NCBI RefSeq assembly: GCF_019733395.1
Contig: NZ_JAIHOO010000001.1
Span: forward strand, 3,658,501 to 3,722,500
Direction of reading: 5' to 3'
Length of the DNA: 64,000 nucleotides
Source: Lysobacter sp. BMK333-48F3
GTDB lineage: Bacteria; Pseudomonadota; Gammaproteobacteria; Xanthomonadales; Xanthomonadaceae
Both the position numbers and the translations under genes were made by a program. The notes beneath the pieces are model-generated. The model searched no databases, was not told the origin of the DNA, and was given only the letters and a program-made list of their open reading frames with translations. This document shows, one piece after another, positions 11,145 to 37,224 of this stretch (the stretch's first letter is position 1; each line of letters opens with the position of its first letter).

Positions 11145-11230
11145 TAGCGGGTAGGAGTGAGGAGTGAGCGGGCCCCGACCTCCACTCACTCCTCGCTTCC
11201 CGCTCCTGGCTTCCCGCTCCCCGCTGCATT
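11145..11230. repeat. GGAGTGAG/CTCACTCC-rich intergenic element
   Basis: Between RidA and the C26 peptidase lies GTAGGAGTGAGGAGTGAG followed by CACTCACTCCTCGC and then three TCCCGCTCC-type words. A related stretch with GGAGAGGAGTGAGT and CGCTCCTCGCGCC occurs at about 9627-9710. They look like two copies of a degenerate dispersed palindromic repeat. The C26 coding end overlaps the right part. Confidence 0.45.
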
Positions 11231-12004
11231 GCGCGCCGCCTCGATGAAGGCCATCAACAACGGCCGCCCCGGCAACAGATCGGGGAAGCGGCGGTCGTGG
11301 AATTCGGGGTGCCATTGCACGCCGACCACGAAGCCGTCTTCGCGGCCGCGGATGCATTCGGGGATGCCGTCCTGCGACCAGGCTTCGACCTCCAGCCCGG
11401 CGCCGAGCTCCTTGATGCCCTGGTGGTGGATCGAATTGACCCGCGCCTGGTCGTGTTGCGGGTACAGCGCCTGCAGCCAACCGCCGGGGCGCAGATCCAG
11501 GGCGTGGGCGTGCTCGTCGTAGCGCGCCGGGATGTAGTGCTGGTCGCCGGTCGCGCCGCCGCCGATCAGGTCCTGGTACAGGCTGCCGCCGTGGGCGACG
11601 TTGATCAGCTGCATGCCGCGGCAGATGCCCAGCACCGGCTTGTCCGCCTCGACGAACGCGCGCAGCAGGCTCAGCTCGAAGCGATCGCGATCCGGGTCGG
11701 TGGTCATCAGCAGCTCGCTGGGCTGCTCGCCGTAGGCCTGCGGATCGATGTCGGCGCCGCCTTGCAGGATCAGCCCGTCCAGCGAGCGCGCGTAATCGCT
11801 CACCGACAGGTCGCTGGCCTGGACCTCGCCCAGCGCATCGACGGTGGGGATCATCGCCACCAGGGCGCCGCTGGACATCACCCAGTGCGCCATCGACTGC
11901 TCCAGGTACTGCAAGGTCTTGTTGCGGAAGCCGTATTCCGGCGGCAGGTTGCGCATCAGCCGCGGGGAGAGGCCGATCAGCAGTTTGCGTGCGGGCGAGT
12001 TCAT
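11186..12004 (-). CDS. peptidase C26 / gamma-glutamyl-gamma-aminobutyrate hydrolase (PuuD-like)
   Basis: 272 residues of the class I glutamine amidotransferase-like C26 family. The nucleophile is Cys128 in 'VLGICRGMQLINV'. 'GLILQGGADIDPQAYGE' forms the oxyanion region and 'VVGVQWHPEF' supplies the catalytic His. PuuD-type enzymes hydrolyse gamma-glutamyl amides such as gamma-glutamyl-GABA in putrescine breakdown. No other puu gene is present. Directly upstream on the same strand is a YbdK-type ligase, which makes or handles gamma-glutamyl bonds, so the pair may act on the same substrate class (inference). Confidence 0.87.
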   Translation of the reverse strand: MNSPARKLLIGLSPRLMRNLPPEYGFRNKTLQYLEQSMAHWVMSSGALVAMIPTVDALGEVQASDLSVSDYARSLDGLILQGGADIDPQAYGEQPSELLMTTDPDRDRFELSLLRAFVEADKPVLGICRGMQLINVAHGGSLYQDLIGGGATGDQHYIPARYDEHAHALDLRPGGWLQALYPQHDQARVNSIHHQGIKELGAGLEVEAWSQDGIPECIRGREDGFVVGVQWHPEFHDRRFPDLLPGRPLLMAFIEAARNAAGSGKPGAGSEE

Positions 12005-15505: not shown

Positions 15506-15924
15506 GTCGATGTCCTGGTCGTGGAGTCGTGCGCGATGGGGGCGTGGCGAAACGGCCACGCCGCGGCCGGCGTCGGCTGCGGCGATCGGTCCCGCGGATG
15601 CGAAACGCAACAGGGGGTGCGCCAAGTGCAGACAAGGCCGGACCGGGCGGGGCCGGTAACCGGCAGGAGCGAACACGCCGCTTCCCTGGCGTGATGTGGA
15701 GGGCCACAGCGTATGAATGCGCGCGTTCGCGAAACCTTGATGTCTCGCGCACTAGCCGCAACCGCGCCGACGGCTTGTGCGATCTGCGATGCAGTCGACC
15801 CTGATCGGATCGGCGCAACCGCGCACGATCGCCGCGGTTGCGCGCGTTCGCCGCGGATGTTTCGGCGGTTGCGCGAGCTTGTCGGCGACGGCAAACCCGA
15901 ACTGCGGTCGCGGCAAGATTTTCC
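15506..15924. other. intergenic region with a 10-bp-stem hairpin
   Basis: 419 bp between two minus-strand genes. It contains the perfect inverted repeat CGCAACCGCG / CGCGGTTGCG (15814-15823 and 15833-15842, 9-nt loop), which lies downstream of the Gfo/Idh/MocA gene and may end its transcript. I see no gene. Promoter elements for the secreted-protein gene should be here but are not clear. Confidence 0.55.
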
Positions 15925-17022
15925 CTAACGCGAAATCGCGTCGGCGGCGAAGGCCGCGTGCTCGGCTTCGCTGAGCGGAAGCGACAGGCTGTGTCCGTGC
16001 GCGGCGGCGGTTTCGGCGGTTTCCAGCACCGCCATCACCGCCAGCGCCTGCGCCGGAGTGACCGGGTTCGCGCCATGTCCGAGCACGGCGTCGCGGATGC
16101 CGGCGTAGTAGCGGCGCTGGTCGCCGGCCGGAGTCGGCAGCGCGTGGCGGCCGGCGTCGTCGTAAACGATCGTCGGGTCCTCGTCGCGGCCCCAGTCGGG
16201 TGCGCCCGGCCGGATCCCGGCCAGCAGCTGCGCTTCCTGCCGGTCGGCCAGCGCCTTGACCGCGCTGCCGCGCTCGCCATGCACGGTGAAGCGCGCGCTG
16301 CCGCCGGCGACCAGCATGCTGGCGTGCAGGATCGCCCGGCGCCGGCCGTAGTCGAGCATCACGTGCGCCCAATCGGCGACCTGGGCGCCGTCGCGCTGGA
16401 TCGCCAGGCTGGCCGACACGCGCTGCGGCAGGCCGAACAACTGCAAGGCCTGGTCGACCAGGTGCGGCCCCAAGTCCCACCACAGGCCGCTGCCGGCGCC
16501 GGCCTGCTCGCGCCAGCGTTCGCGCACCTGTGGCCGGTAGCGGTCGATATGCGATTCGAAATGCACCACCTCGCCGAGCCGGCCGCTTTCGATCAGGCCG
16601 CGCACGGCGAGGAAGTCGCTGTCCCAGCGCCGGTTCTGGAACACCGACAGCAGCCGGCCGCGCTGTTCGGCCAGCGCGCTCAGTTCGCGCGCCTGAGCCA
16701 GGTCCAGGGCGAAGGGCTTGTCGACCACCACGTGCTTGCCGGCGTCCAGCGCGGCGCGCGCCAGCGGCGCATGGCTGTCGTTCGGCGTGGCGATGACCAC
16801 CAGGTCGGCGCGGGCGTCGGTCGCCGCGGCGAACGGGTCGGCGACCGTCGTCGCCTCGGCCAGTCCGCTTGCGGCCAGGCCGGCGGCGACCTTGGCCGCA
16901 TCGCGCGAACCGATCAGTTGCAGATGCAGGCCTGGCGTGGCGCCGATCAGCGGCGCGTGGAAGGTCTGGCCGGCGAAGCCGTAGCCGATCAAGGCCACGC
17001 GGATGGGGGCGGGAGTGCTCAT
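15925..17022 (-). CDS. Gfo/Idh/MocA-family NAD(P)-dependent oxidoreductase
   Basis: 365 residues. The N-terminal Rossmann fold has 'VALIGYGFAGQTFHAPLI' (GxGxxG-type loop) and 'VVIATPNDSHAPLARAAL'. 'AGKHVVVDKPFALDL' carries the conserved catalytic Lys, and the C-terminal substrate domain includes 'FQNRRWDSDFLAVRGLIESG' and 'GSGLWWDLGPHLVDQAL'. Such enzymes oxidise or reduce sugars and related hydroxy compounds; the overall pattern is close to the YdgJ/scyllo-inositol dehydrogenase branch. Substrate not assigned. It is divergent from an MFS transporter (135-bp gap), so a shared uptake and oxidation role is possible. Confidence 0.88.
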   Translation of the reverse strand: MSTPAPIRVALIGYGFAGQTFHAPLIGATPGLHLQLIGSRDAAKVAAGLAASGLAEATTVADPFAAATDARADLVVIATPNDSHAPLARAALDAGKHVVVDKPFALDLAQARELSALAEQRGRLLSVFQNRRWDSDFLAVRGLIESGRLGEVVHFESHIDRYRPQVRERWREQAGAGSGLWWDLGPHLVDQALQLFGLPQRVSASLAIQRDGAQVADWAHVMLDYGRRRAILHASMLVAGGSARFTVHGERGSAVKALADRQEAQLLAGIRPGAPDWGRDEDPTIVYDDAGRHALPTPAGDQRRYYAGIRDAVLGHGANPVTPAQALAVMAVLETAETAAAHGHSLSLPLSEAEHAAFAADAISR

Positions 17023-17157
17023 GGCGGTGGGTCGGCGGGGGCGAATGCGGGACGACCGCCCCACCATGCCGGATCGCGGCGCGCGCGGCCAGCGCCGGGC
17101 TTTGCCGGATGGGGCCTGGATCGGGTATCAATTCCCTGTCCCCCGACCGGAACCCGT

Positions 17158-18447
17158 ATGAGCGCCGTCGCGATCGCACCCGCCGCCCCGTCCGCCTCCC
17201 GCGTGCTGTTCGCGAGCCTGATCGGCACCACCATCGAGTTCTTCGATTTCTACATCTACGCCACCGCGGCGGTGCTGGTCTTCCCGCAGTTGTTCTTTCC
17301 CGCCGCCGATCCGAGCACGGCCACCCTGCAGTCGCTGGCGACCTTCGCCCTGGCGTTCCTGGCCCGGCCGATCGGCTCGGCGGTGTTCGGCCATTTCGGC
17401 GACCGGATCGGCCGCAAGGCGACCCTGGTCGCGGCGCTGCTGACCATGGGCCTGTCGACGGTGGCGATCGGCCTGCTGCCGACCTATCACAGCATCGGCA
17501 TCCTGGCGCCGGCGCTGCTGGCGTTGTGCCGTTTCGGCCAGGGCCTGGGCCTGGGCGGCGAATGGGGCGGGGCGGTGTTGTTGGCGACCGAGAACGCGCC
17601 GCCGGGCAAACGCGCCTGGTACGGCATGTTTCCGCAGCTCGGCGCGCCGATCGGTTTCTTCTTGTCGACCGGAATTTTCCTGCTGTTGACCGGAACCATG
17701 GGCGACGCCGCCTTTTTCGTCTGGGGCTGGCGGATTCCGTTCCTGGCCAGCGCGGTGCTGGTCCTGGTCGGGCTGTGGGTGCGCCTGCGGATCAGCGAGA
17801 CCCCGGCCTTCCAGCGCGCCATCGACCAGCACGAACGGGTGCGCCTGCCGATGCTGCAGGTGCTGACCCGCCATCCCGGCGCGTTGATCGCCGGCACCTT
17901 CGCCGCGCTGGCGACCTTCGTCCTGTTCTATCTGATGACCGTGTTCGCGCTGAGCTGGGGCACTTCGCAGTTGGGCTATACGCGCGAGCAGTTCCTGCAG
18001 CTGCAGCTGGGCGGGGTGGTCTGCTTCGCCCTGACCATCCCGCTGTCGGCGGTGTTCGCCGACCGCCGCGGCCGACGCCTGGCGATGATCCTGTCGACCG
18101 GCGCGATCGTGATGTTCGGCCTGTATTTCGCCCAGCTGTTCTCTGCCGGCAGCGGCCTGGGCACCTTGGTCTTCCTCGGCCTGGGCCTGGGCATCATGGG
18201 CCTGACCTACGGCCCGCTGGGCACGATCCTGGCCGAGATGTTCCCGACCGCGGTGCGCTACACCGGCGCCTCGCTGGCGTTCAACCTGGCCGGCATTTTC
18301 GGCGCCTCGCTGGCGCCGTACGCGGCGACCTGGCTGGCCCAGCGCTACGGCCTGGAGTTCGTCGGCTATTACCTCGCCGCGGCCGGGGCGCTGACCCTGA
18401 TCGCGCTGCTGATGGTGCGCGAGGACGAGAGCGACGCCGCGCCCTGA
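17158..18447 (+). CDS. MFS metabolite:H+ symporter (ShiA/ProP type)
   Basis: 429 residues with 12 predicted membrane helices. The start 'LIGTTIEFFDFYIYATAAVL' and the loop 'GHFGDRIGRKATLV' (MFS motif A) identify the metabolite:H+ symporter family. Further support comes from 'CRFGQGLGLGGEWGGAVL' and 'YGPLGTILAEMFPTAVRYTG'. The family imports compounds such as shikimate, proline/betaine, alpha-ketoglutarate or citrate with protons across the inner membrane. The substrate is not predictable here. It is divergent from the oxidoreductase and convergent with the TetR gene, ending 10 bp from its stop. Confidence 0.88.
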   Translation: MSAVAIAPAAPSASRVLFASLIGTTIEFFDFYIYATAAVLVFPQLFFPAADPSTATLQSLATFALAFLARPIGSAVFGHFGDRIGRKATLVAALLTMGLSTVAIGLLPTYHSIGILAPALLALCRFGQGLGLGGEWGGAVLLATENAPPGKRAWYGMFPQLGAPIGFFLSTGIFLLLTGTMGDAAFFVWGWRIPFLASAVLVLVGLWVRLRISETPAFQRAIDQHERVRLPMLQVLTRHPGALIAGTFAALATFVLFYLMTVFALSWGTSQLGYTREQFLQLQLGGVVCFALTIPLSAVFADRRGRRLAMILSTGAIVMFGLYFAQLFSAGSGLGTLVFLGLGLGIMGLTYGPLGTILAEMFPTAVRYTGASLAFNLAGIFGASLAPYAATWLAQRYGLEFVGYYLAAAGALTLIALLMVREDESDAAP

Positions 18448-19188: not shown

Positions 19189-19545
19189 ATGAGCGAGACC
19201 CGAGACAGCTATCCCCTGACCGTTTTCATGCTGGTCAAGACCCAGCCCGAATGGCTGGCCTTCGACATCGACACCCGTTTCCGCCTGCTCGCCGAGCACG
19301 TCGAGCCGATCGTGAATAAACACCGCGACCAGGTGCGGCTGCGCTTCTACGACATCGAGTTCTACAACGCCCGGGTCACCGACCTGTGGCAGTGGGACGC
19401 GCGCAGCCATCACGCTTACGAACTGGTGGTCGAGGCGCTGCGCGAGACCCCGTTCTGGGACCGCTACTTCGCCATCGTCGAGATCCTGCCCGGGGTCGAG
19501 AACGCCTACGCCAGCAACTACGGCCGTCAGCCCTTGGCGGCCTGA
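19189..19545 (+). CDS. darcynin-like small protein
   Basis: 118 residues, cytoplasmic by appearance. The text 'YPLTVFMLVKTQPEWLAFDI' with 'VRLRFYDIEFYNARVTDLWQ' and 'LRETPFWDRYFAIVEILPGV' resembles what is annotated as darcynin, a family of unknown function; this name is from memory. The start ATG 19189 follows AACGAGG. It is divergent from a TetR regulator across a palindromic operator, so it is probably induced by a small molecule. Its 3' end overlaps the convergent metallopeptidase gene by 19 bp. No catalytic motif is evident. Confidence 0.72.
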   Translation: MSETRDSYPLTVFMLVKTQPEWLAFDIDTRFRLLAEHVEPIVNKHRDQVRLRFYDIEFYNARVTDLWQWDARSHHAYELVVEALRETPFWDRYFAIVEILPGVENAYASNYGRQPLAA

Positions 19546-20063
19546 TCGGCCGCGCCTGCGGCCGGTTTCTGCGCAGCCAACTCCAACTGGGTCAGATACA
19601 GCCGCAGATCGAACTCGCGCTGGTGATAGTCCGGACTCATGTGAGTACAAAGCTGGTAGAAGGCCTTGTCGTGGTCGCGGTGCTTGAGGTGGGCCAGCTC
19701 GTGCACCGCGATCATTTCCAGGAATTCGCCCGGCGCGTCGCGGAACAGGGTGGCGATGCGGATCTCGCGCGCGGCCTTGAGCCGCCCGCCGTGCACGCGC
19801 GACACCGCGGTGTGGGTGCCCAGCGCATGCTGGACCACGTGCAGCTTGTTGTCGTAGACGACCTTGTTGAGCGGGTCGCTCTTGCGCATGTAGCGGTCCT
19901 TGATCGCGACCACGTATTCGAACAGCGCCTTGTCGTCGCGGACCTGGTGGCCGGCGCTGTAGCGGTTGCGCAGCACCTCGCCCAGGCGTCCGGCGTCGAT
20001 CAGCGCGCGGACCTGGCTCAGCACGCGCTCGCCGTAGCCGCGCAGGTATCGGAGTTCGTCCAT
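19527..20063 (-). CDS. YgjP-like (DUF45) metal-dependent hydrolase
   Basis: 178 residues with the zinc-protease motif HELAH (121-125) and a third ligand region 'HRDHDKAFYQLCTHM'. The spacing is that of the YgjP/WLM (DUF45) group. Upstream, 'DPLNKVVYDNKLHVVQHALG' and 'GGRLKAAREIRIATLF' are conserved in relatives that start MDELRYL, which is why ATG 20061-20063 is chosen; an ATG at 20081 is also possible. There is no signal peptide, so it should be cytoplasmic. Family substrates are largely unknown. Confidence 0.8.
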   Translation of the reverse strand: MDELRYLRGYGERVLSQVRALIDAGRLGEVLRNRYSAGHQVRDDKALFEYVVAIKDRYMRKSDPLNKVVYDNKLHVVQHALGTHTAVSRVHGGRLKAAREIRIATLFRDAPGEFLEMIAVHELAHLKHRDHDKAFYQLCTHMSPDYHQREFDLRLYLTQLELAAQKPAAGAADQAAKG

Positions 20064-20148
20064 GCGCACACGATACGGCATCGGCGTCCCCGCTCGCGAG
20101 ACGGCGATACGACCGCGGTCATGGATCGGGGGCGCGGTGCGCGGCCGT

Positions 20149-22017
20149 TCAGGGCCGGTATTCGACCCGCAGTCGGGCGCCTGCGCCGCGCTCGATCCAC
20201 AGGTAGTTCGTCGCCCCCGGCGGCTGCTCGAAGCGCAGCCGCAGTTGGGTGCGGCCGCTGCGGTCGATCGCGTTCAGTCCGGCGCCGCCGAAGACGGTGC
20301 TGGTCTGGCGGCCGCCGCCGAAACGCGCCATTTCGGCCACCGCCAGGGCATCGGCGGCCGCGGCGTAGTCGCCGGCTTCGATCGCGCAGCCGCCGTAGCA
20401 GCCCTTGCGCGCGTCGATCAGCAGACGGTTGCCGGCCGGCTGGCCCCAGGGGTCGCCGTAGGCGCTGCGGAAACCGACGCTGAGCGTGGCCGACAGCACG
20501 GTCGCGCCGTCGGGCAGGGCCGAGGTATCGAACGACAGCAGGCTGCGGTTGTGCTTGCCGTCGCTGCCGCGGCCGAGCGCCAGGCCGTAGCTGGCTTCCA
20601 GCGCGCCGATCGCCGGCGCGGTGCCGTCGGCGTTGGCCTTGACGTAGCCGTCGTTGGCGTCTTCGTTGTCGAATTCCATGACCAGCGCCGGGCCGTCGCT
20701 GCCGCCGCTGACCGTGACCGAGACCGCGGCCGAGCTGGCCAGGTTGCCGGCGACGTCTTCGGCGCGGGCCTGCAACACGTGCGCGCCGTTGCTGGCGGCG
20801 GCGCTGTTCCATTGCACGCTGTACGGGGCCTGGGCGTCGCTGGCGAGCACGGCGCCGTCGATCAGGAAGTCGACGCGTTCGACGCCGACATCGTCGCTGG
20901 CGTCCGCGCTCACCGTCACCGCGCCGCTGACCTGGGCGCCGTCGGCCGGGGCGGTCAGCGCGACCTGCGGCGGATTCGGGTCGAGATCGTCCAGGCCCCA
21001 GTAGCGGGCGATGTAGTAGCTGGAGCAGATATCGGCGTCCAGGACGTAGGCGCCGGCGGTGCCGCACTGGGTCTCGCCGCTGCCCGGATCGACCGGCGTG
21101 CCATGGCCCATGCCGGCGATGGCGTAGGTCTCGACCCGCGCGCGGCCGGCGGCGTCGCGGTAGACGCGGTGCGCATGGCCGGCGACCGTGTCCTGCACGT
21201 CGGCGCTCTGGTCGATGCCGTGCACGTCGGTCCATTGCTGCATCAGCTCGGCCTGGTTCATCGGCCGCACCACGTAATCGGCGTCGCCGTGCCAGATCGA
21301 TACGATCGGCCAGGGACCGGCGTGCGCGGTCGCCGCACGCACTTTGTCGCCCCATTGCGCCGGGCTCAGGTCGCTGCCCGGTGACATGCACGAGAACGCC
21401 GCCGCCGAACCCGTCGCGCAACGATAGGGCAGGCCGGCGACGACCGCGCCGCCGGCGAACAGGTCCGGATAGACCGCGAGCAGGGCCGCGGTCATCGCCC
21501 CGCCGGCCGACAGGCCGGTGACGTAGACCCGGTCGGCGGCGCTGCCGTGATCGGCGCGCATGCGCTCGATCATCTGCCGGATCGACAGGGCTTCGCCCTG
21601 GTCGCGCGCGGTGTCGCCGGGCTCGAACCAGTTGAAGCAGGCGTTGGCGTTGTTGGCGCTTTGCTGTTGCGGCAACAGCAGGGCGAAGCGCCAGCGCTGC
21701 GCCAGCATTTCCCACCCGGTTTCGGCGTCGTAGGACGCCGCGCTCTGCGCGCAGCCGTGCAAGGCCACGACCAGCGGCGCGCCGGCCGGCAAGCCGGCGG
21801 GCACGTATTTGTACATGCGCAGATTGCCCGGATTGCTGCCGAAGCCGGTGACCTCGGTCGACGCCGACGCCGAGGACGCCGCGCTCAGTCCGAGCACGGC
21901 CAGTACCGCGGCCAGAGCGCGGCTGCGGCGCGGGCGTGCGGCGAACGGGCGTGCTGCGAACGGGCGTGCGGCGAGTGGGTGATGCGGCGAAGGCGATGAA
22001 CGCAACGATCGGAACAT
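20149..22017 (-). CDS. secreted PHB-depolymerase-family esterase with Ig-like and C-terminal beta domain
   Basis: 622 residues in three parts. After an Arg-rich signal (residues 1-53) comes an esterase_phb domain (about 55-355). It has 'APLVVALHGCAQSAASYD', the lipase box Ser in 'VTGLSAGGAMTA', the acid in 'WHGDADYVV' and His in 'AGMGHGTPVD'. Next is a bacterial Ig-like domain (about 360-450, 'PADGAQVSGAVTVSADASDD'), then a C-terminal beta domain of DNRLRE type ('LLSFDTSALPDGATVLSATL'). Such enzymes hydrolyse polyesters or ester-linked polysaccharide side chains. The start has CAGGAG. The PLD-like gene lies 125 bp upstream on the same strand. Confidence 0.87.
   Translation of the reverse strand: MFRSLRSSPSPHHPLAARPFAARPFAARPRRSRALAAVLAVLGLSAASSASASTEVTGFGSNPGNLRMYKYVPAGLPAGAPLVVALHGCAQSAASYDAETGWEMLAQRWRFALLLPQQQSANNANACFNWFEPGDTARDQGEALSIRQMIERMRADHGSAADRVYVTGLSAGGAMTAALLAVYPDLFAGGAVVAGLPYRCATGSAAAFSCMSPGSDLSPAQWGDKVRAATAHAGPWPIVSIWHGDADYVVRPMNQAELMQQWTDVHGIDQSADVQDTVAGHAHRVYRDAAGRARVETYAIAGMGHGTPVDPGSGETQCGTAGAYVLDADICSSYYIARYWGLDDLDPNPPQVALTAPADGAQVSGAVTVSADASDDVGVERVDFLIDGAVLASDAQAPYSVQWNSAAASNGAHVLQARAEDVAGNLASSAAVSVTVSGGSDGPALVMEFDNEDANDGYVKANADGTAPAIGALEASYGLALGRGSDGKHNRSLLSFDTSALPDGATVLSATLSVGFRSAYGDPWGQPAGNRLLIDARKGCYGGCAIEAGDYAAAADALAVAEMARFGGGRQTSTVFGGAGLNAIDRSGRTQLRLRFEQPPGATNYLWIERGAGARLRVEYRP
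21931..21975. repeat. three-copy 15-bp repeat inside the esterase signal region
   Basis: Three near-identical 15-bp units (CGGGCGTGCGGCGAA and variants) encode repeated AARPF in the positively charged start of the esterase signal peptide. A fourth decayed unit follows. The repeat is in frame. Confidence 0.85.
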
Positions 22018-23645: not shown

Positions 23646-24004
23646 CGGGACGGTCGAAGGCAAGCGTGATAGTTATCGCGGAATGCGCGCGACGCAAACG
23701 GGACGGAATGCGATGAACGGGCGCTACAGCGGTGCGAACGGATTTTCGCCGACTTCGGCGGCGACCGCGACGTTTTCTTGTGCGGCGCAATAAACAGAAC
23801 CGACAGTTGACACGGAGGCGGGCGAGCGCGCAGCGTGTCGGCGCGGAGTTGCCAGGGGACGGTGTCCGAAGCCGATGAGGCTCGCTCCGCCGTCCGCAAC
23901 GACTCCGTGCACGTACGTCGTCAACGATCGGAATCGGCCCGTCTCCCGGGATCCCGGCGCGGGCCGCCACCGATTCCAATCATGTATTGAACAAGGAGAG
24001 GTTT
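23646..24004. promoter_or_regulatory. upstream region of the lanthipeptide precursor genes
   Basis: 359 bp between the PLD-like gene and the first precursor. It is less GC-rich than its surroundings and contains a TTGACA at 23807-23812 without a good -10 partner, and a CACGTACGT palindromic word near 23910. The very strong ribosome site AAGGAGAGG (23993-24001) stands 3 nt before the first precursor ATG. I see no coding gene here. The promoter of the locus is expected in this stretch. Confidence 0.5.
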
Positions 24005-24181
24005 ATGCAGATCGAAGACATCGTTTCGGGCTGGCTCAACGGTTCGGAAGACATGAACCCGGCGGGTCCGCTGTACATCGAAGGCGTTGCCTCGACCGAG
24101 GCCGCGCTGACCGACACCAGCCTGCCGCTGCTGACCCGCTGCAGCAGCTGCAGCGCTTCCAGCGGCAGCCAGTGCTGCTGA
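24005..24181 (+). CDS. class II lanthipeptide precursor peptide 1 (candidate LanA)
   Basis: 58 residues. The leader starts MQIEDIVSGWLNGSE and continues through 'NPAGPLYIEGVASTEAALTD'. The predicted core is near the end: 'TRCSSCSASSGSQCC', with four Cys (46, 49, 57, 58) and seven Ser/Thr from residue 44 on. That composition suits Ser/Thr dehydration and Cys ring closure by the LanM encoded downstream. It shares 49 of 58 residues with the next gene. The leader lacks a GG/GA site in the usual place, so the cleavage point is unknown. The ribosome site is AAGGAGAGG. Assignment as a LanM substrate is inference from context and Cys/Ser pattern. Confidence 0.82.
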   Translation: MQIEDIVSGWLNGSEDMNPAGPLYIEGVASTEAALTDTSLPLLTRCSSCSASSGSQCC

Positions 24182-24232
24182 CCGCGCTAGCAAATCCGCG
24201 CTAAGAAGTCTGTTACCGACAAGGAGAAGTTC

Positions 24233-24409
24233 ATGCAGATCGAAGACATCGTTTCGGGTTGGTTGAACGGTTCGGAATCGGAAAACCCGGCCGGCCCGCT
24301 GTACGTCGAAGGCATCGCCGCGACCGAAGCCGCGCTGACCGACACCGCTTTGCCGCTGCTGACCCGTTGCAGCAGCTGCAGCGCTTCCGGCGGCGGTTAC
24401 TGCTGCTAA
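24233..24409 (+). CDS. class II lanthipeptide precursor peptide 2 (candidate LanA)
   Basis: 58 residues, a paralogue of the preceding gene with nine substitutions (positions 16, 17, 25, 28, 30, 39, 53, 55, 56). All four Cys are conserved; the core end is 'TRCSSCSASGGGYCC', with Gly replacing two Ser of peptide 1 and Tyr replacing Gln. Only five Ser/Thr remain from residue 44 on, so at most five dehydrations are possible there. It lies 51 bp after peptide 1 with its own AAGGAGAAG ribosome site. The strict conservation of leader and Cys frame says both are handled by the same enzyme. Confidence 0.82.
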   Translation: MQIEDIVSGWLNGSESENPAGPLYVEGIAATEAALTDTALPLLTRCSSCSASGGGYCC

Positions 24410-24430
24410 GCAGACGCTAGCCAGCGCTTG

Positions 24431-24458
24431 CCCGCTCCCGGCTCGCGCCGGGAGCGGG
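24431..24458 (+). terminator. GC-rich hairpin between precursor genes and lanM
   Basis: A perfect 12-bp stem (CCCGCTCCCGGC / GCCGGGAGCGGG) with a TCGC loop lies 21 bp after the second precursor stop and 130 bp before lanM. Only two T follow, so it may end just part of the transcripts. This would give more precursor mRNA than enzyme mRNA, or protect the precursor message. Confidence 0.7.
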
Positions 24459-24588
24459 TTCGATCCACCGGGCCGGCGACGCCGCCCAACCCCGTTCCGC
24501 CGCAGGCCGCGCCGATGCCGCTCCCGCGAATGCGACCGGCGCGCGCCGAGCCTGCGGTTCCGTCGATTCCGCAGGATGCACCGACACG

Positions 24589-27423
24589 ATGAGCGAACCC
24601 AGCAGCGGCGAGTCGTTCCTCCCGATCATCGAAACCTTCACCGCCGCGCATCGCGCCCGACTGGACGCGACCCTGGCCGCGCTGGCGCCGCAACTGGACC
24701 GCGACGAGATCGCGCTGCTGCAGCGGGTCGGCGCGCAGACCCTCAACGACAACGCGCGGCTCAAGCTCAGCCGCACCCTGTTGCTGGAGCTGCATGCCGC
24801 GCGCCTCGGCGGACAGTTGCCGGCGCAGGACGAGGTCGAGCAGTTCCAGCAGTTCATCGCCCTGGCGCTGCAGCCGCCGTTCGACCCGCATCTGCGCCAG
24901 CGCTATCCCGCGCTGCACGAGCGCTTGCAGCGCAGCCTGGAACTGCAGCGCCTGGCGCTGGAAGCGCTGGCCGCGCGCATCGCCCGAGATCGCGAGCGCC
25001 TGGGCGAACTGCTCGGCCACGCGCCCGGCCGCCTGCTGGCGGTGCAGCCGGGCGAGGGCGACCGCCACGCCGGCGGCCAGACCGTGGTGCGGCTGGGCTT
25101 CGAAGGCGGGCGGATCATGTACAAGCCGCGTTCGCTGCGCATCGATCTGGCCCTGGACGCGTTCCTCGCCCAGGTATTCGGCGACGACCCCGACCGGATC
25201 CGGGTGCCGTACGCGCTGGATTGCGGCGACTACGGCTGGACCGGCTTCGTCGACCACCGCTATTGCGACGGCGACGCCGAACTGGGCACGTTCTATCGCA
25301 ACCTCGGCCACTGGCTGGCGGCGATGCAGTTGCTCGGCGGCACCGACCTGCACCAAGAAAACCTGATCGCCGCCGGCCCAGTGCCGGTCGCGATCGACGT
25401 CGAAAGCCTGTTCGCGATCGAAGTCGACGCCCCGCCGTCGCCGCGCGGCCGCGCCTTCGATCTGGCCTCCGAGCTGATCCGCACCTCGGTGCTGCGCACC
25501 GGCATCGTGCCGTTCCGCGCCCCGGTGCTGGGCTTCGGCGGCGTCGATATTTCCGCCGCCGGCGCGCTGCCGGGCGAGCAGCCGCAGATCCGCATGCCGA
25601 GCATCGCCGACGAAGGCACCGCGCGCGCGCGGCTGCAGATCGTCAGCGCCGACTTCGGCCAGTCGCAGAACCATCCCAGCCCCAACCCCGAAGTGAGCCG
25701 GTTCTGGGACCGGATCAGCGAGGGCTTCGTTGCGGCCACCGCGCGCCTGCGCGCGCTCGACGCCGAGGGCGCGCTGGAACCGCTGCTGCGCGGGTTCCTC
25801 GGCTGCCCGGCGCGCGACATCCGCCGGCCGACCCAGGCCTATGTCGAAATCATGCGCATGCTCTGGCACCCGGCCTCGTTGCACGACGAGCCCAAGGCGA
25901 TCGAGCGCGCCCGCGACATCCTGCGCCGCAACGCCGTCGCGCTGCCGATCGCGCCGTCGTCGGCGCACGAAATCGACGGCGAGATCGAAGACATGCGGGT
26001 CGGCGACGTGCCGATCTTCGTCGCCCCGCTGGACCCGGCGCGGATCGAGGAAACCTTGCAGCGTTGGCGGCGGATGCGGGTCGAGCTGGAAGAGCTGACC
26101 ATCCGCAGCGCCCTGGTCACGGTCGATCTGAACCAGCGCCTGGGCAAGAACGAACGCGCACGCGCCGACATCGTCGCCCGCCACCCGCATGCGCAGCGGC
26201 TGGACGCGCGCCGCCGCGCGGCGGCGGCGCAGGCGGTGGCGCAACTGCTGCGTCTGGCGGTGTACGGCGACGACGGCAGCGTGACCTGGATCAGCCCGGT
26301 GCTCGGCGATACCGGCTGGGTGACCCGGCCGCTGCAGGCCGATCTGTACACCGGCCTGGGCGGCGTGGCGCTGAGCCTGGCCGGTTATCTGCACGAATGC
26401 CGCGCCGGTCGCGCCGACCCGGTCGACGGCCTGGAGCCGGCGCTGGAGGGCACGTTGCACGCATTGCGCACGATCGAGCAGGCCGACGCGCCAAGCACGG
26501 TCGGCGGCATGATCGGCTACGGCGGGCAGATCTGGACCTGGGTGAGCTTGCACGACCTGTTGCGACGGCCGCAGATGCTGGAGTGGGCGATCGAGCGCGC
26601 CCAGGCGCTGGAGGCGGCCGGCTTCGACGCCGACCGCTACCTGGACCTGCTCGAAGGCGCCAGCGGCGCGATCGTGCCGTTGCTGCAGCTGGCCGACGCC
26701 AGCGGCGATCCGCGCTGGCGCGAACTGGCCGCGCGCGCGGCGCGGTTCATGGAGTCGCAGGCGATCGTCGACGAGCGCGGCGCGTGCTGGCCGTCGACGA
26801 TCTTCGACGCGCCGATCGGCGGCTACGCGCACGGCGCCAGCGGCATCGGCTGGGCGCTGAGCCGGATCGGCCACAGCGCCGCCGGCAGCGCCGAGGACCG
26901 GGCGCGCTGGCTGAGCCTGGCCGAGCGCGCGTTCGCCTTCGAAGAGGGCCTGTACGACGACGGCGCCGGCTGCTGGCGCGACGCGCGCATCGCCGACGAG
27001 GAGCAGTTCCTGCACAACTGGTGCCACGGCAGCGTCGGCATCGGCCTGGCCGCCTGCGACCTGTACCAGCTCACCGGCGATGCCCGCCATCTGCGCGACC
27101 TGCGCCGCGCCGCGCAGGCCGCGCGCGGCTTCGGCTGGGGCGTCAGCCACACCTTGTGCCACGGCGACCTGGCCTTGTGGGAGTTGCTGGCGCGCGCCGC
27201 GCAACTGGACCCGGAGGGCGGCTGGGGCGACCCGGCCGAACACACGATGCAGATCGTGTCGGCGATCGAGGAGCACCACGGCGCGGTCGGCAGCCGCGCC
27301 CGCGATGCCTTCACCCCGGGCCTGATGACCGGCGTGGCCGGCGCGGTGCACGCGCTCAACCGCATGCACCCGGACTGCCCCCTGGTCACGCCGCTGGTGT
27401 TCGAGCGGCGGGCAGGGCGCTGA
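24589..27423 (+). CDS. lanM: class II lanthipeptide synthetase LanM
   Basis: 944 residues, the normal LanM size. The N-terminal DUF4135 dehydratase (to about 560) has 'GEGDRHAGGQTVVRLGFEGG' and the kinase-like 'IMYKPRSL' (about residue 177). It also has 'GTDLHQENLIAAGPVPVAID' with 'VESLF' (about 250-272), which phosphorylate and eliminate Ser/Thr. The C-terminal LanC-like cyclase has 'GYAHGASGIGWALS' with His748, 'NWCHGSVGIG' with Cys812 and 'LCHGDLALWE' with Cys857-His858; the two Cys and His858 are the expected zinc ligands. All key motifs look intact. It should install lanthionine rings in the two upstream peptides in the cytoplasm. The ATG at 24589 has only a weak AGGA site. Confidence 0.93.
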   Translation: MSEPSSGESFLPIIETFTAAHRARLDATLAALAPQLDRDEIALLQRVGAQTLNDNARLKLSRTLLLELHAARLGGQLPAQDEVEQFQQFIALALQPPFDPHLRQRYPALHERLQRSLELQRLALEALAARIARDRERLGELLGHAPGRLLAVQPGEGDRHAGGQTVVRLGFEGGRIMYKPRSLRIDLALDAFLAQVFGDDPDRIRVPYALDCGDYGWTGFVDHRYCDGDAELGTFYRNLGHWLAAMQLLGGTDLHQENLIAAGPVPVAIDVESLFAIEVDAPPSPRGRAFDLASELIRTSVLRTGIVPFRAPVLGFGGVDISAAGALPGEQPQIRMPSIADEGTARARLQIVSADFGQSQNHPSPNPEVSRFWDRISEGFVAATARLRALDAEGALEPLLRGFLGCPARDIRRPTQAYVEIMRMLWHPASLHDEPKAIERARDILRRNAVALPIAPSSAHEIDGEIEDMRVGDVPIFVAPLDPARIEETLQRWRRMRVELEELTIRSALVTVDLNQRLGKNERARADIVARHPHAQRLDARRRAAAAQAVAQLLRLAVYGDDGSVTWISPVLGDTGWVTRPLQADLYTGLGGVALSLAGYLHECRAGRADPVDGLEPALEGTLHALRTIEQADAPSTVGGMIGYGGQIWTWVSLHDLLRRPQMLEWAIERAQALEAAGFDADRYLDLLEGASGAIVPLLQLADASGDPRWRELAARAARFMESQAIVDERGACWPSTIFDAPIGGYAHGASGIGWALSRIGHSAAGSAEDRARWLSLAERAFAFEEGLYDDGAGCWRDARIADEEQFLHNWCHGSVGIGLAACDLYQLTGDARHLRDLRRAAQAARGFGWGVSHTLCHGDLALWELLARAAQLDPEGGWGDPAEHTMQIVSAIEEHHGAVGSRARDAFTPGLMTGVAGAVHALNRMHPDCPLVTPLVFERRAGR

Positions 27424-28722: not shown

Positions 28723-30306
28723 CTAGCGGGGAGCGGTGGCGACCCGCACCCGCGACGCCAGGCACAAGCCGAGCAAGGCCAGCGCCGCGGCGATCCCGAA
28801 GCCGCACAAGTAGGCCAGCAGATGCGAGCGGGTCAGCAACGCAGCGAACAGCGAGCCGCCGATCGCCAACGCAGTGGCGGTGAAGATCGCATCGCCCAGG
28901 TGCAGGGCGGAGGAACTCTCGCCCTGGCGTTCCGGCGGCGACAGTTCCAGCATCAGCACCGACAAGGTCGGATACATCAGGCCCATGCCGAAGCCGGCCG
29001 CGATCCAGCCGGCGATGCCCAGCGCCAGTGGCGTCGCGGTCCAGGTCAGCGCGGCGATCGCGAGCACGCCCAGGCCGAGCAGGGCCATGCCGGCCTGCAG
29101 GAAACGCGTCGCCGCGGCGCTGGCCGGGGCGCGGCCGCGGATCCAGGAACCGCTCGACCAGCCGATCGCGCCCAGGGTCAGCACCAGCCCGGCCCAGGTC
29201 GGCGACAAGCCGCGCTCCTGCGCCAGCAGCAGCGGGATATAGGCTTCGCTGAGGAAGAAGGCGCCGGCGGCGAGGCCGCGCAGCGCGACCACGGTCGGCA
29301 GCCCGCGTGCGGCGCGCAAGGCGCCGGCCGGCAACAGCCGCGAGGCGGCCGCGACCAGGGCCGCGACCGCGATCGAGATCCACAGCCAGGCGCCGGCATC
29401 GCGCAACTGGCCGCCGTAATGCAGGCCGAGCAGGCTGGCGGTGGCCAGCAACGCCCACAGCAGGCGCGTGCGTTGCGGCCGCGCGACGGCGTTCGCGCTC
29501 GGGCCAAGGCCGCGCAGGGCCGGCAAGACCAGCCACGCCGCCAGCGCCGCGGCCAGCGGCACCGACAAGAACACCCAGCGCCAGCCGATATGTTCGACGA
29601 TCGCGCCGCTGATCGCCGGGCCGACGATCGCCGGCACCACCCAGGCCGCGGCGAAGGCGGCGAAGATGCGCGCATGCAGGCGCGGCGGGTACACCCGGCC
29701 GACCACCACGTACAGGGCCACCGAGATCAACCCGCCGCCGAAGCCCTGGACCACGCGCCCGGCGATCAACCACGCCATCGACGGCGCCGCGCCGGCCAGC
29801 AGCAGGCCGAGCGCGAACCAGACGATGCCCTGGCGCAGCGGCGCGGCCGGGCCGCGCGCGTCGGCCCAGGGGCCGGCGGCGACCATGCCGACCACGCTCG
29901 CGGCGAGGGTGCCGGCGAAGGCCAGCGCGTACAGCGAGAGGCCGTCGAGCGCGCGGGCCACGGTCGGCATCGCGGTGGTCACCGCCAGCGCTTCGAAACC
30001 GACCAAGGCGACCAGGGCCACCGCGCCCGCGGTCAGCGCGCGATAGGCCGGCTGGAACACACCTGATACAGAGGGACCCGATACGGACTGACCCGATACG
30101 GACGGACTCGGCGCATCGAGGCCGTGCTCGGGAGGAGCCGCGGCGACGGACGACCCGGCCCGCTGGGCCAGTTCCGCTTCGCCGGGGACCGTTGCCGCGG
30201 CCCCTCCCGACCATGGCCGCGCGGACTGCGGCGGCGGTTCGTATCCGGCCGGCGCGTTCGAGGCGTCGCCGAGCGCGGCGCCGGCGATGGATTCGTCCTG
30301 ACTCAT
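28723..30306 (-). CDS. MFS multidrug efflux transporter, SoxR-controlled operon
   Basis: 527 residues. An unusually long, disordered N-terminal tail (about 90 residues, Pro/Ser/Ala-rich, with SVSGQ-SVSGP-SVSGV repeats) precedes 12-14 membrane helices. 'GLSLYALAFAGTLAASVVGM', 'AGRVVQGFGGGLISVALYVV', 'GAIVEHIGWRWVFLSVPLAA' (DHA-type motif C) and 'FGMGLMYPTLSVLMLELSPP' place it among drug:H+ antiporters. Its ATG overlaps the quinone reductase stop (ATGA), so the two are translationally coupled. Together they lie behind a SoxR-box promoter, pointing to export of redox-cycling compounds. Confidence 0.88.
   Translation of the reverse strand: MSQDESIAGAALGDASNAPAGYEPPPQSARPWSGGAAATVPGEAELAQRAGSSVAAAPPEHGLDAPSPSVSGQSVSGPSVSGVFQPAYRALTAGAVALVALVGFEALAVTTAMPTVARALDGLSLYALAFAGTLAASVVGMVAAGPWADARGPAAPLRQGIVWFALGLLLAGAAPSMAWLIAGRVVQGFGGGLISVALYVVVGRVYPPRLHARIFAAFAAAWVVPAIVGPAISGAIVEHIGWRWVFLSVPLAAALAAWLVLPALRGLGPSANAVARPQRTRLLWALLATASLLGLHYGGQLRDAGAWLWISIAVAALVAAASRLLPAGALRAARGLPTVVALRGLAAGAFFLSEAYIPLLLAQERGLSPTWAGLVLTLGAIGWSSGSWIRGRAPASAAATRFLQAGMALLGLGVLAIAALTWTATPLALGIAGWIAAGFGMGLMYPTLSVLMLELSPPERQGESSSALHLGDAIFTATALAIGGSLFAALLTRSHLLAYLCGFGIAAALALLGLCLASRVRVATAPR
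30061..30105. repeat. 15-bp repeat in the MFS N-terminal tail
   Basis: Three 15-bp units (ACCTGATACAGAGGG, ACCCGATACGGACTG, ACCCGATACGGACGG) in frame encode the repeated SVSGx in the disordered tail of the efflux protein. Confidence 0.85.
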
Positions 30307-31289
30307 GCGAACGACTCCGACGGCGCGGTCTGGTAGACCATCAGCACCACCTTGCCGCGCGCCGGCTCGCGTTCGACCGCGCGATGCGCTTCGGCGGCGC
30401 GGGCCAGCGGAAACATCTCGCGCACCCGCACCAGCAGGCCGTGGCGCAGATGGGCGCTGACCAGTTCGATCAGGCCGGCCCGGCTGCGCTCGCTGGCGCA
30501 CGGCGTGCGCGCACGCTGGCGAGGCCGGCGCGGCGCGTCGTGCAGGCCGACCACGCGCGGCGGCGCTGCGCCGGAATCCGACCAGGCCGGCGTGGCTGCG
30601 GCGCCTAGCGCGTCGAACACCGCATCGACGCCGTCGGGCGCCAGGGCGCGCAAGCGCGCCGGTGCAGTCTCGTCCTCGTCGATCGCCGTCGCGCCCAGCG
30701 AGCGCAGATAATCGTGATCGGCCGGCGCGGCGCTGCCGATCACCCGCACGCCCCAGGCGCGGGCCAACTGCACGGCGACGCTGCCGATGCCGCCGGCGGC
30801 GCCGCGGACCAGCAGGGTTTCGCCCGCCTGCAGTTCCAGCGCGCGCAATGCGGCCAACGCGGTCTGGCCGGTCGAGGCCAGCGCGCCGGCGACCGCCCAG
30901 GACATGCTCGGCGGCTTGTGCACCACCTGTTCGGCCGGCACGGTCAGCACCTCGGCATAGCTCATCGCCACCGCCCAGCCCAGCACTTCATCGCCGGGCT
31001 TCAGGCCTTCGACGCCGTCGCCGACCTGGTCGACCACGCCGGCGAATTCGTTGCCGAGCCGGCGCGGGAACGCCCCGGGCGCTGCGGCGCGGCCGGCGCG
31101 CAGGGCGATGTCGCGCGGGCGCACGCCGGCCGCGCGGACCCGGATCCGCACCTCGCCGGCGCCGGCCTGCGGCATCGGCAGGTCGATCGCGCGCAACACT
31201 TCGGCGCCGCCATGGCGTTCGTAGACCACCGCCTTGACCTGCGGCGGTGCGGCGGAGGAGGCGATATCGCGGCGTTCGGCGGCGCTCAT
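30303..31289 (-). CDS. zinc-independent NADP-dependent quinone reductase (MDR family)
   Basis: 328 residues of the medium-chain dehydrogenase/reductase family, quinone-oxidoreductase branch. 'MPQAGAGEVRIRVRAAGVRP', 'RRLGNEFAGVVDQVGDGVEG', 'ALASTGQTALAAL' and the nucleotide loop 'GETLLVRGAAGGIGSVAVQL' are all present; catalytic zinc ligands are absent. Such enzymes reduce quinones and enones with NADPH. The ATG 31287-31289 is chosen because an earlier ATG (31322) lies inside the promoter -10 element. It leads the SoxR-controlled operon and shares ATGA with the MFS gene. The C-terminal third (residues about 240-275) is Pro/Arg-rich and poorly conserved-looking. Confidence 0.86.
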   Translation of the reverse strand: MSAAERRDIASSAAPPQVKAVVYERHGGAEVLRAIDLPMPQAGAGEVRIRVRAAGVRPRDIALRAGRAAAPGAFPRRLGNEFAGVVDQVGDGVEGLKPGDEVLGWAVAMSYAEVLTVPAEQVVHKPPSMSWAVAGALASTGQTALAALRALELQAGETLLVRGAAGGIGSVAVQLARAWGVRVIGSAAPADHDYLRSLGATAIDEDETAPARLRALAPDGVDAVFDALGAAATPAWSDSGAAPPRVVGLHDAPRRPRQRARTPCASERSRAGLIELVSAHLRHGLLVRVREMFPLARAAEAHRAVEREPARGKVVLMVYQTAPSESFA

Positions 31290-34643: not shown

Positions 34644-35225
34644 TCAGTCCGTGGCGACCGGCTCGCGCGCGCGCCAGCGCATCGCGGCGTGGGTCGGCAG
34701 GTTTTCCTCGTGTTCGAAGCCCAGCCGTTGATACAGGCGCCGCGCCGCGTCGTTGCCGTGCTCGACATGCAGGCGCAGGCCGCGTCCCGATGCGGCGGCG
34801 TCGTCCTGTGCGGCCGCGATCAGCGCCGCGCCCAGGCCCTGGCCGCGCTGGTTCGCGTCCAGGCCGATATCGACCAGCAGGTGCTCCGGCGCGCGGCGCA
34901 GCAGGTATAGCCGCCCGATCGGCGCCGCATCGCGTTCGACGATCAGGAACTGCGCGTCGGCGTAGTAGCGGGTGTAATGCTGGTGCTGCAGGGCGAATTG
35001 CTGGTCCAGGAACGCGTCCAGCGCCGCCGCCGGCCAGCCCAGCGGCGCGAACTCCGCGGCGCGCCGCTGGTGGTAATGCCGGCGCAGCCAGGCCATGTCG
35101 TCGTCGCGGGCCGCGCGCAAGCTCACGCCCTGTTCCGACACGCTGGCGGCGAGACGCAGGCACGGGCCGCCGCGATGCGGCGGCGGAAACGACAGCGTCG
35201 GCGACGGCCCGTGCACCGCGATCAA
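34644..35225 (-). CDS. GNAT-family N-acetyltransferase linked to tail-collar genes
   Basis: About 193 residues if read from a TTG (35223-35225) that overlaps the TGA of the collar gene before it; a GTG at 35214-35216 or a later one may be used instead. The GNAT fold is clear from 'VSLRAARDDDMAWLRRHYHQ', 'DIGLDANQRGQGLGAALIAA' (acetyl-CoA pyrophosphate loop) and 'LHVEHGNDAARRLYQRLGF'. It transfers an acetyl group; the target could be a product of the same operon. It is the last gene of a four-gene minus-strand unit with the three collar proteins. Confidence 0.85.
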   Translation of the reverse strand: MIAVHGPSPTLSFPPPHRGGPCLRLAASVSEQGVSLRAARDDDMAWLRRHYHQRRAAEFAPLGWPAAALDAFLDQQFALQHQHYTRYYADAQFLIVERDAAPIGRLYLLRRAPEHLLVDIGLDANQRGQGLGAALIAAAQDDAAASGRGLRLHVEHGNDAARRLYQRLGFEHEENLPTHAAMRWRAREPVATD

Positions 35226-35749
35226 CCGAACGAGGGGAACACGCCCTGCAGGGCGATGCAGAAGTTCATCGCCAGGTAGGGCTGGCGGTTCTCGTGCGGC
35301 TGGCCGCCGCCGGCGGGCTGGACCACGGTGGGCGGGAACGGCGCATTGGCCGCGCCGTTGAAGAAGGCCGAAGCCACCGGGCTGCCCAGGGCGTTGCCGA
35401 CGGCCGGCGACGCCTGCCGCTTGCTCACGTCGTTCTGGTTGTAGATCTGCATCGTGTGGGTGTGTTGCGGCATTTGCTGCGTGGTCAAGGTCACGCTGTT
35501 GCTGCCGAAGGTCTCGCCGATGGTGCGGTCGGTCAGGGCCGGCCCCTGGCCTTGCTCGCAGGCGGCGCGATTGGCGAAGTTGGGCAGTTGGAACGTGGTC
35601 TGGCCGTTGCCGCCGTACTGAGTGCCGAGCAGCGAGAACAGCGCGGTGTTCTGCTGGATCGCCAGGGTGGCGCCGTTGCAGAACGCCCAGCCGCGCGGCG
35701 GGAAGTTGAAGCCGAACAGTTGGATCTGGCCGATGAAAGGTTCGGACAT
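35222..35749 (-). CDS. phage-tail-collar-domain protein 3 (microcystin-dependent-protein type)
   Basis: 175 residues, third of three paralogues. It starts MSEPFIGQIQLFGFNFPPRG, then 'WAFCNGATLAIQQNTALFSL' and 'LGTQYGGNGQTTFQLPNF', the tail collar domain. The middle 'QMPQHTHTMQIYNQND' carries the conserved HTH triad, and 'HENRQPYLAMNFCIALQGVF' ends it. Such proteins are found in non-phage loci, may be exported, and are assumed to form trimeric fibres. Only the collar domain is present, with no phage tail genes around it. It ends in overlap with the acetyltransferase start. Confidence 0.88.
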   Translation of the reverse strand: MSEPFIGQIQLFGFNFPPRGWAFCNGATLAIQQNTALFSLLGTQYGGNGQTTFQLPNFANRAACEQGQGPALTDRTIGETFGSNSVTLTTQQMPQHTHTMQIYNQNDVSKRQASPAVGNALGSPVASAFFNGAANAPFPPTVVQPAGGGQPHENRQPYLAMNFCIALQGVFPSFG

Positions 35750-35795
35750 GGTCTTGCTCCTGGTGCTGGCGCGGCCCGCGTGGCGGGCCGGCGCA

Positions 35796-36326
35796 TCAAT
35801 TCTGCGACGGGAAAATGCCGGCCCAGGCGATGCAGAACTGCACCGTGAGGGTGGGCATGAGGTTGTCGTGCGGCTGGCTGCCCCCGGCCGGCGTGACCGC
35901 CGCGGCCGCCTGCGGAATCGGCGGCAGGCTGGCGATGTCGGTCAGGTACATGGTGTCGCCGCTGAGCGCGCCGAGCTCGACCGTCGAGCCGGGCTGATTC
36001 GCCGTCGACAGCAGGGTGGTCGCGACCATCGTATGGGTGTGTTGCGGCATCTGGTTCGAGATCAGGGTGACGTTTTCGTTGCCGCCCCTCTGGCCGATCA
36101 CGTAGGGGCTCAGGCCCTGGCCGTTGCCGAAGTGCACCGGCGCGCGTCCGCGCAGATCGGGCACGGCGAAAGTGGTCTGGCCGTCGCCGCCGTAGGTGGT
36201 GCCGAGCAGGACGAACAGGACTTCGTACTCGGAAATCGGGTAGAGGCTGCCGTCGCAGGCAAACCAGCCGGTGGGAACACGGCCGAATCCGAACATGCGG
36301 ATCTCGCCGACGTAAGGTTCGCTCAT
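35796..36326 (-). CDS. phage-tail-collar-domain protein 2
   Basis: 176 residues starting MSEPYVGEIRMFGFGRVPTG. The collar core is 'WFACDGSLYPISEYEVLFVL' with 'LGTTYGGDGQTTFAVPDLRG'. 'ISNQMPQHTHTMVATT' holds the HTH motif, and 'QPHDNLMPTLTVQFCIAWAG' with IFPSQN closes the protein. It is the most divergent of the three copies (WFACDG for FCNG). It lies 46 bp upstream of copy 3 and 64 bp after copy 1 on the minus strand, so one transcript is likely. The function is unknown. Confidence 0.88.
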   Translation of the reverse strand: MSEPYVGEIRMFGFGRVPTGWFACDGSLYPISEYEVLFVLLGTTYGGDGQTTFAVPDLRGRAPVHFGNGQGLSPYVIGQRGGNENVTLISNQMPQHTHTMVATTLLSTANQPGSTVELGALSGDTMYLTDIASLPPIPQAAAAVTPAGGSQPHDNLMPTLTVQFCIAWAGIFPSQN

Positions 36327-36390
36327 GGTGTGGACTCCGTAACGCGAATGCTGAAAGAAAGCCGGACGAACCGGCGCATGGACCGGTGCG

Positions 36391-36921
36391 TCAGTTGCGC
36401 GACGGGTAGATGCCGACCAGGGCGATGCAGAAATTGATGGCGAGATAGGGCTGCAGGTTCGGATGGGGCTGGGTGCCGCCTTGCTGGCTGAGCACGGCTG
36501 CCGACAGCGGCACCTGCGCACCGTTGGTGTTGGCGTACATCGACAGGGTGGATTTGGCGTAAAGCGCGTCGCGCGCGGCGCGTACGTTGGCGGTGCCGTC
36601 GGTGCCGACCAGGCCGTGGGTGTGGGTCGGCATTTGCGTGCTGAGCAGGGTGACGTTCTCGGTCCCGCCGATCTCGCCTATGTTGTAGGGCGAGGGATTC
36701 CAGCCCGGGTCGACCGAGTTGCCGAACCCGACCGGGGTGCGTCCCTGCAGGTTGGGCAAGGCGAAGTTGGTCTGGCCGTTGCCGCCGTACTGCGTCCCCA
36801 ACAGCGAGAACAGGGCCTGGTTCTGGGCGATCGCCAGAAGCTGGCCGTTGCAGAAGGCGAAGCCTTTCGGAGGGAAGTTGAACCCCCCCATGATGATTTG
36901 TCCCAAGAATACTTCTGTCAT
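36391..36921 (-). CDS. phage-tail-collar-domain protein 1
   Basis: 176 residues starting MTEVFLGQIIMGGFNFPPKG, then 'FAFCNGQLLAIAQNQALFSL' and 'LGTQYGGNGQTNFALPNLQG'. 'STQMPTHTHGLVGTDG' has the HTH motif, and 'QPHPNLQPYLAINFCIALVG' with IYPSRN ends it. It is the first gene of the minus-strand unit, with a GGGGAAGA ribosome site. Proteins of this family have been called microcystin-dependent or tail fibre proteins. A divergent giant autotransporter starts 303 bp away, so the two transcription units may be coregulated. Confidence 0.9.
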   Translation of the reverse strand: MTEVFLGQIIMGGFNFPPKGFAFCNGQLLAIAQNQALFSLLGTQYGGNGQTNFALPNLQGRTPVGFGNSVDPGWNPSPYNIGEIGGTENVTLLSTQMPTHTHGLVGTDGTANVRAARDALYAKSTLSMYANTNGAQVPLSAAVLSQQGGTQPHPNLQPYLAINFCIALVGIYPSRN

Positions 36922-37224
36922 CTCTTCCCCCGGAGGATGTCGTCCGCCCCCTCTCGGGTCCGGACTGCGGGCCGGATCGGACCGGCCCGCCGCCGCAGGG
37001 AGCGGGCGGAGAGCAGGCTGAGCCGGCATGGCGCATGCGCGCCATGACCTGGCTTAACGCAAAGCCGCGGAAAAGGCGGCCGCTTTTCTTGCCGAATTGC
37101 GTGTTAGCTCGTGATAGGGGTGCGCCAGGGCTGTCGGGCGCGCGATGCGGCATACAACGCAAGGCGGAACTCCAGCCGGGATCGCCAGGGGACGGCGTCG
37201 CGGCGGGGTCGGGGGAACGGCATC
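36922..37224. promoter_or_regulatory. divergent control region, collar operon / autotransporter
   Basis: 303 bp between divergent starts. It contains an inverted repeat CATGGCGC-ATGC-GCGCCATG (37027-37046) and an imperfect AAAAG-GCGGCCG-CTTTT palindrome close by (about 37073-37089). Either could be a regulator site. No gene is supported. Promoters for both units must lie here, but I cannot define -10/-35 boxes safely. Confidence 0.55.

Follow-up and report, generated by a model that had tools for sequence, protein, structure and literature searches.

A putative minimal class II lanthipeptide operon with twin DUF6229 precursors in Lysobacter sp. BMK333-48F3

In the genome of Lysobacter sp. BMK333-48F3, a host close to L. 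antibioticus, we identified three genes, two for short DUF6229 peptides and one for a LanM synthetase, that would together constitute a minimal class II DUF6229 lanthipeptide operon. The locus lies within a 64,000-nucleotide stretch of DNA (the window, to which nucleotide positions refer unless another locus is named) and is a real, correctly read and ordinary member of the known DUF6229 class II lanthipeptide family. Judged from sequence, the LanM very probably turns both peptides into lanthipeptides (probability about 0.93). Profile matches above cut-off for precursors and enzyme (PF19740, TIGR03897), retained catalytic residues and a constant pairing with LanM across genomes uphold the class II interpretation put forward in an earlier note on this DNA.

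Two tandem precursors and a complete LanM

The features of the locus are as follows.

23993..23998, + strand: ribosome-binding site AAGGAG of lanA1, read from the sequence
24005..24181, + strand: lanA1, an ORF for a 58-aa DUF6229 precursor (PF19740, E 4.8e-21)
24134-24178, + strand: predicted ring-bearing part of lanA1, Thr44-Cys58
24221..24226, + strand: ribosome-binding site AAGGAG of lanA2, read from the sequence
24233..24409, + strand: lanA2, an ORF for a 58-aa DUF6229 precursor (PF19740, E 6e-23)
24362-24406, + strand: predicted ring-bearing part of lanA2, Thr44-Cys58
24430..24459, + strand: hairpin of 12 exact pairs (13 with one G-U), a perfect inverted repeat in the lanA2-lanM gap
24589..27423, + strand: lanM, a 944-aa class II lanthipeptide synthetase (TIGR03897, DUF4135, LANC_like, catalytic and zinc residues)

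All three genes follow one another head to tail on the + strand. The spacing from AAGGAG to the ATG is 6 nt for lanA1 and lanA2 alike, and the same AAGGAG precedes the precursor genes of two related genomes (G116 and G157). An upstream TTG would extend lanA1 to 64 aa; the ribosome-binding site and the relatives both support the ATG as the probable start.

Domain analysis placed both peptides firmly in PF19740 (DUF6229), with scores of 74.9 bits for precursor 1 and 81 bits for precursor 2 against a curated cut-off of 25, so that the family tentatively named in the earlier note proved correct. An NCBIfam profile search of the two precursors at E 0.1 returned no match, and neither did a plasmid search with precursor 2 as query. 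The peptides are identical at 49 of their 58 residues and have Cys 46, 49, 57 and 58 in common, while the nine differing residues (16, 17, 25, 28, 30, 39, 53, 55 and 56) include all three positions that had been singled out as variable, namely 53, 55 and 56; precursor 1 has Ser at both 53 and 55, where precursor 2 has Gly. At the nucleotide level, changes between lanA1 and lanA2 fall on codon positions 1, 2 and 3 in the ratio 11/3/12, and dN was lower than dS in every differing pair among the six tandem genes compared. The PF19740 matches, the tandem pairs of the same core type in two further genomes (G116 and G500) and the excess of dS over dN confirm, at the level of sequence, that the precursor pair is beyond chance.

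The leaders of both peptides carry the motif [NS]PAG.L, which is present in 78 of 79 distinct precursors. A double-Gly cleavage site is absent from both leaders, and the core boundary is therefore a guess. A promoter scan found none.

The synthetase matched the NCBI profile TIGR03897 with 502.3 bits (cut-off 304) and combines, in a single protein, a dehydratase domain at residues 106-478 (Pfam DUF4135) with a cyclase domain at 581-927 (LANC_like). It matches the solved LanM structures LicM2 and CylM at the sequence level. The residues that serve catalysis and zinc binding in CylM (PMC4550811) correspond to D158, H160, K179, D253, H255, N258, D270, R409, T415, C812, C857 and H858 of the window enzyme, including a CylM-type Cys-Cys-His zinc site; the CylM residues were placed from pairwise alignments, of which the one across the zinc site is weak (5.3 bits), with the same Cys and His also covered by LicM2. 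All 12 residues are kept in every aligned LanM row (17 rows representing 15 distinct proteins, that of the window among them and the rest from related loci). A LanM with a lost active site is thus ruled out, 12 of the 12 checked residues being kept, and the earlier description of two 58-residue genes directly before a complete LanM holds. The adjoining precursors, each with a leader and a Ser/Thr/Cys-rich C-terminal core, are likewise what a class II system possesses. In the mechanism we propose, LanM would bind the shared leader with its near-invariant NPAG motif, phosphorylate and then eliminate core Ser and Thr residues, and add the Cys thiols to form lanthionine rings.

The hairpin between lanA2 and lanM has counterparts elsewhere. 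Our sample covered 61 of 87 places, giving 59 distinct 70-nt stretches after the precursor stop, two of which separate tandem precursors. Of the 59, 33 contain a stem of at least 8 pairs and 26 do not; in 40 plain letter shuffles the number of such stretches averaged 0.9 and never exceeded 3. The hairpin sequence itself varies among the stretches (the window; L003-L026, L041-L061, L099-L114), and no stem of at least 8 pairs follows the first gene of L018 or L019, the two tandem pairs inspected. Folding of the whole 186-nt gap gave only a weakly better result than shuffled sequence (z -1.82), which did as well in 9 of 200 cases, and it is the local hairpin that stands out. This element may serve as a leaky terminator or a processing stem, either of which would yield more precursor than enzyme.

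Pairing of DUF6229 with LanM and relatives of the locus

To survey the prevalence of DUF6229 peptides, we searched genome sets sampled at one per species, those of the family and the order being drawn from a larger group. They turned up in 15 of the 198 genomes searched for the family, in 44 of 398 for the order and in 16 of 20 for the genus, these sets overlapping. The family and order searches together yielded 71 distinct DUF6229 places in 48 genomes, of which 69 have a same-strand LanM 62 to 599 bp downstream, as measured between matched stretches rather than gene ends; the remaining two, seemingly unpaired, have a LanM alongside by tblastn. In the genus, LanM sequence also lies downstream of all 16 additional places examined (of 20), where only the first part of LanM falls inside the locus. 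In total, LanM sequence follows at 87 of 87 DUF6229 places examined. DUF6229 peptides without LanM, whose wide occurrence the earlier note had named among the outcomes refuting its proposal, were thus seen at none of these 87 places and are rejected as a widespread condition, and the homologous precursor-LanM pairs that it had suggested seeking do exist in other genomes.

Viewed from the enzyme, 80 LanM places scored above the cut-off in the family and order, a lower bound given that the order search scored two candidates per genome. A DUF6229 match precedes 63 of these, with two precursors before the LanM in 6 of the 63. The other 17 have no preceding DUF6229 match, and other precursor types are therefore likely there; examples include G090:C13, G138:C1:4141400 and G298:C11.

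The source genome (5.2 Mb) itself contains two DUF6229 peptides and one LanM. This economy, the intact LanM residues and the unbroken pairing all argue against the view that LanM does not act on the peptides, the enzyme being degenerate or serving another peptide, which we consider highly improbable.

The nearest named relatives found are L. antibioticus HS124 (L036, with a LanM 94% alike), L. antibioticus 13-6 (L035, 79%) and Luteibacter rhizovicinus (L037, 56%), in that order. While the tandem pair recurs as noted above, G157 and G497 carry a single 61-aa precursor in its place, and the window locus has flanking genes in common with G116 and G157. The Luteibacter relative belongs to a family of loci, f12 (L037, L043-L051, L053), with cores mostly of the form [ST]xCSSCTASRPGxCC and with RPV in L052. 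These cores agree with the window in all four Cys and in having Ser/Thr at 6, 9, 12 and 14, and their LanM proteins are 55-56% alike to that of the window in three loci compared. They differ in having a 62-aa precursor, one match per place and Arg-Pro where the window has a Gly-rich linker.

Core pattern and the predicted fourth ring

Contrary to what the earlier note had thought possible, the family is not uncharacterised. In 2022 rhodanocin, the DUF6229 peptide (LanII) of Dyella sp. 333MFSha, was co-expressed with its LanM and proven to be a class II lanthipeptide. It is dehydrated four times and carries Thr18 as Dhb, its three rings being Thr6-Cys11, Cys8-Ser14 and Thr12-Cys23; the same study proposes the name rhodanocins and divides DUF6229 into at least two groups by ring pattern (PMC9576775). 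A 2024 preprint on 24 Lysobacter genomes catalogues 72 class II clusters, whose unique precursors, 27 in number with 21 from DUF6229, form six families, and reports that the Lysobacter cores place Cys, Ser and Thr unlike the Dyella peptide (PMC11451712). These clusters agree with the window in genus, family and class, and the window may belong to one of the six precursor families described there. PMC10745450 states that no lanthipeptide had yet been isolated from the genus Lysobacter. In the main texts of the literature searched, the core strings CSSCSAS, CSSCTAS and TRCSSC do not appear, though supplements or figures may hold the sequences. The novelty was overstated in the earlier note, the kind of compound being known.

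Rhodanocin resembles the window system in pairing a DUF6229 precursor with its own class II synthetase. Its T6, C8, C11, T12 and S14 correspond to T44, C46, C49, S50 and S52 of the window peptides, a match made by numbering. Rhodanocin forms its rings with three Cys, the last of them at 23, and has Thr18 dehydrated and a possible double-Gly motif; the window core, with its shorter tail, has its four Cys at positions 8, 11, 19 and 20 and a Ser at 9, and lacks both Thr18 and a double-Gly site. We do not file the window peptides as rhodanocin because the three-Cys arrangement ending at 23 and Thr18 are both missing from them.

Comparison across the 79 distinct precursors from the 87 places revealed the motif [TS]xCxxC[ST]xS in 27 and other patterns in 52; in shuffled cores the motif arose at rates of 1.1% (core 2) and 4.2% (core 1). 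Among the 27 bearers, 20, the window included, have four Cys, at 8, 11, 19 and 20, with Ser/Thr at positions 6, 9, 12 and 14 in 20 of 20. Position 9, which is Ser47 of the window, is Ser in 20 of 20 four-Cys peptides and neither Ser nor Thr in any of the 7 three-Cys bearers (0/7), a comparison among peptides selected by the motif and kin by descent, and hence not 27 independent cases. Four of these seven are, by numbering, rhodanocin-like, with Cys at 8, 11 and 23 and Ser/Thr among other places at 6, 12, 14 and 18; in the other three the last Cys is at 24. Two leader types, VSGWLNG and AQWRTDA, carry the four-Cys core; they share descent and do not count as independent cases.

Modelled on rhodanocin, the window peptides would have Thr44 joined to Cys49, Ser52 to Cys46 and Ser50 to Cys57 or Cys58, the other terminal Cys pairing with Ser47. 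Since four Cys meet four constant partners, a fourth ring from Ser47 to Cys57 or Cys58 is predicted; going by the sequence pattern, we put this thioether at slightly under even odds. Two points weigh against this ring prediction: the divergent residue placement reported for Lysobacter cores (PMC11451712) and the rate at which the motif arises in shuffled cores. The four Cys and their four key partners do not differ between the precursors, so near-identical products are expected; Ser53 and Ser55 lie outside the four constant ring partners. Calculated monoisotopic masses of the two precursors are 5964.68 and 5877.68 when unmodified and would be 5892.64 and 5805.64 after four dehydrations.

In a competing interpretation, part of the C-terminal Cys pair goes unused: the peptide has three rings, like rhodanocin, the fourth Cys stays free or enters a disulfide, and Ser47 is kept for another reason. 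Three rings are the sole solved DUF6229 pattern that we found, and a free Cys is kept in another LanM product, LanII-2B (both PMC9576775). The strict association of Ser at position 9 with the extra Cys, present in all 20 four-Cys peptides and absent from all 7 three-Cys motif peptides, speaks against this interpretation, which we regard as possible though rather doubtful. The wider four-ring proposal, that the core represents an interlocked extension of the rhodanocin fold through an extra C-terminal Cys and an inter-Cys Ser, found on two leader types and carried by a cassette without its own exporter or protease that relies on the host for both, is one we hold tentatively, just short of an even chance.

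Export, trimming and role of the product

A LanT transporter with a C39 peptidase is usual, though not obligatory, in class II clusters. Among the 32 ORFs flanking the window locus (Pfam scan, 8.1-48.5 kb of the window), no Peptidase_C39 or ABC transporter match was detected, and so no LanT/C39 gene was found in the cluster. The neighbouring genes that may bear on export or trimming, all named from Pfam, are these.

11186-12004: Peptidase_C26 (amidotransferase) gene, candidate for export or trimming
15838-18447: MFS gene, candidate for export or trimming
19527-20081: YgjP-like metallopeptidase, candidate for export or trimming
20149-22002: PHB-depolymerase-type esterase with a minor Peptidase_S9 match, candidate for export or trimming
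28723-30501: MFS gene, candidate for export or trimming

Two C39 hits lie elsewhere in the genome, about 2 Mb or more away. We do not take them as a dedicated exporter, the precursors having no double-Gly site, and action in trans is conceivable. The first hit (L087 126-5076; G000:C1 about 937125-942075) stands beside an HlyD-like and an ATP-grasp-like gene and is ABC-transporter-like by eye; this gene set, named by eye, is perhaps a graspetide cluster. The second (L088 30-4635) is a 242-aa C39 peptidase beside repeat proteins with a recurring NIGxNVAAGVGN, and by eye it looks like a surface or amyloid system. Export and trimming would most likely depend on factors encoded elsewhere.

The window also contains three consecutive ORFs on the - strand (35222-37029), each with a phage tail collar domain (PF07484). 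On the + strand follow a 1715-aa protein (37111-42258) with many Ig-like repeats and an autotransporter beta-domain, and a 958-aa ORF (45608-48484) with a Beta-lactamase (PF00144) domain and DUF3471.

As for its role, we infer that the product is somewhat more probably than otherwise a small antibacterial peptide. It could instead be a signal, cell-surface or intracellular peptide, in which case the missing dedicated transporter and immunity gene would follow from that role. The empty C39/ABC result among the flanking ORFs accords with such a role, as does the comparison with distant loci, which have LanM in common with the window and otherwise only weak matches at 29-33% identity (in L091, L062 and L063), the comparison having been made for ORFs of at least 100 aa and for the window against the others. 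The Dyella relative, however, inhibits Klebsiella pneumoniae, albeit weakly (MIC 126 uM for a peptide whose cut site is probably not the native one; PMC9576775), and we consider a non-antibacterial role unlikely.

Collectively, the suspected family is real, its members adjoining LanM at every place examined, and the antibacterial lanthipeptide remains our preferred interpretation of the product. The interest that remains lies in the missing exporter and in the fourth-ring prediction, for which the four-Cys core offers a clear and cheap target: whether the added Ser-Cys pair would close a fourth ring.
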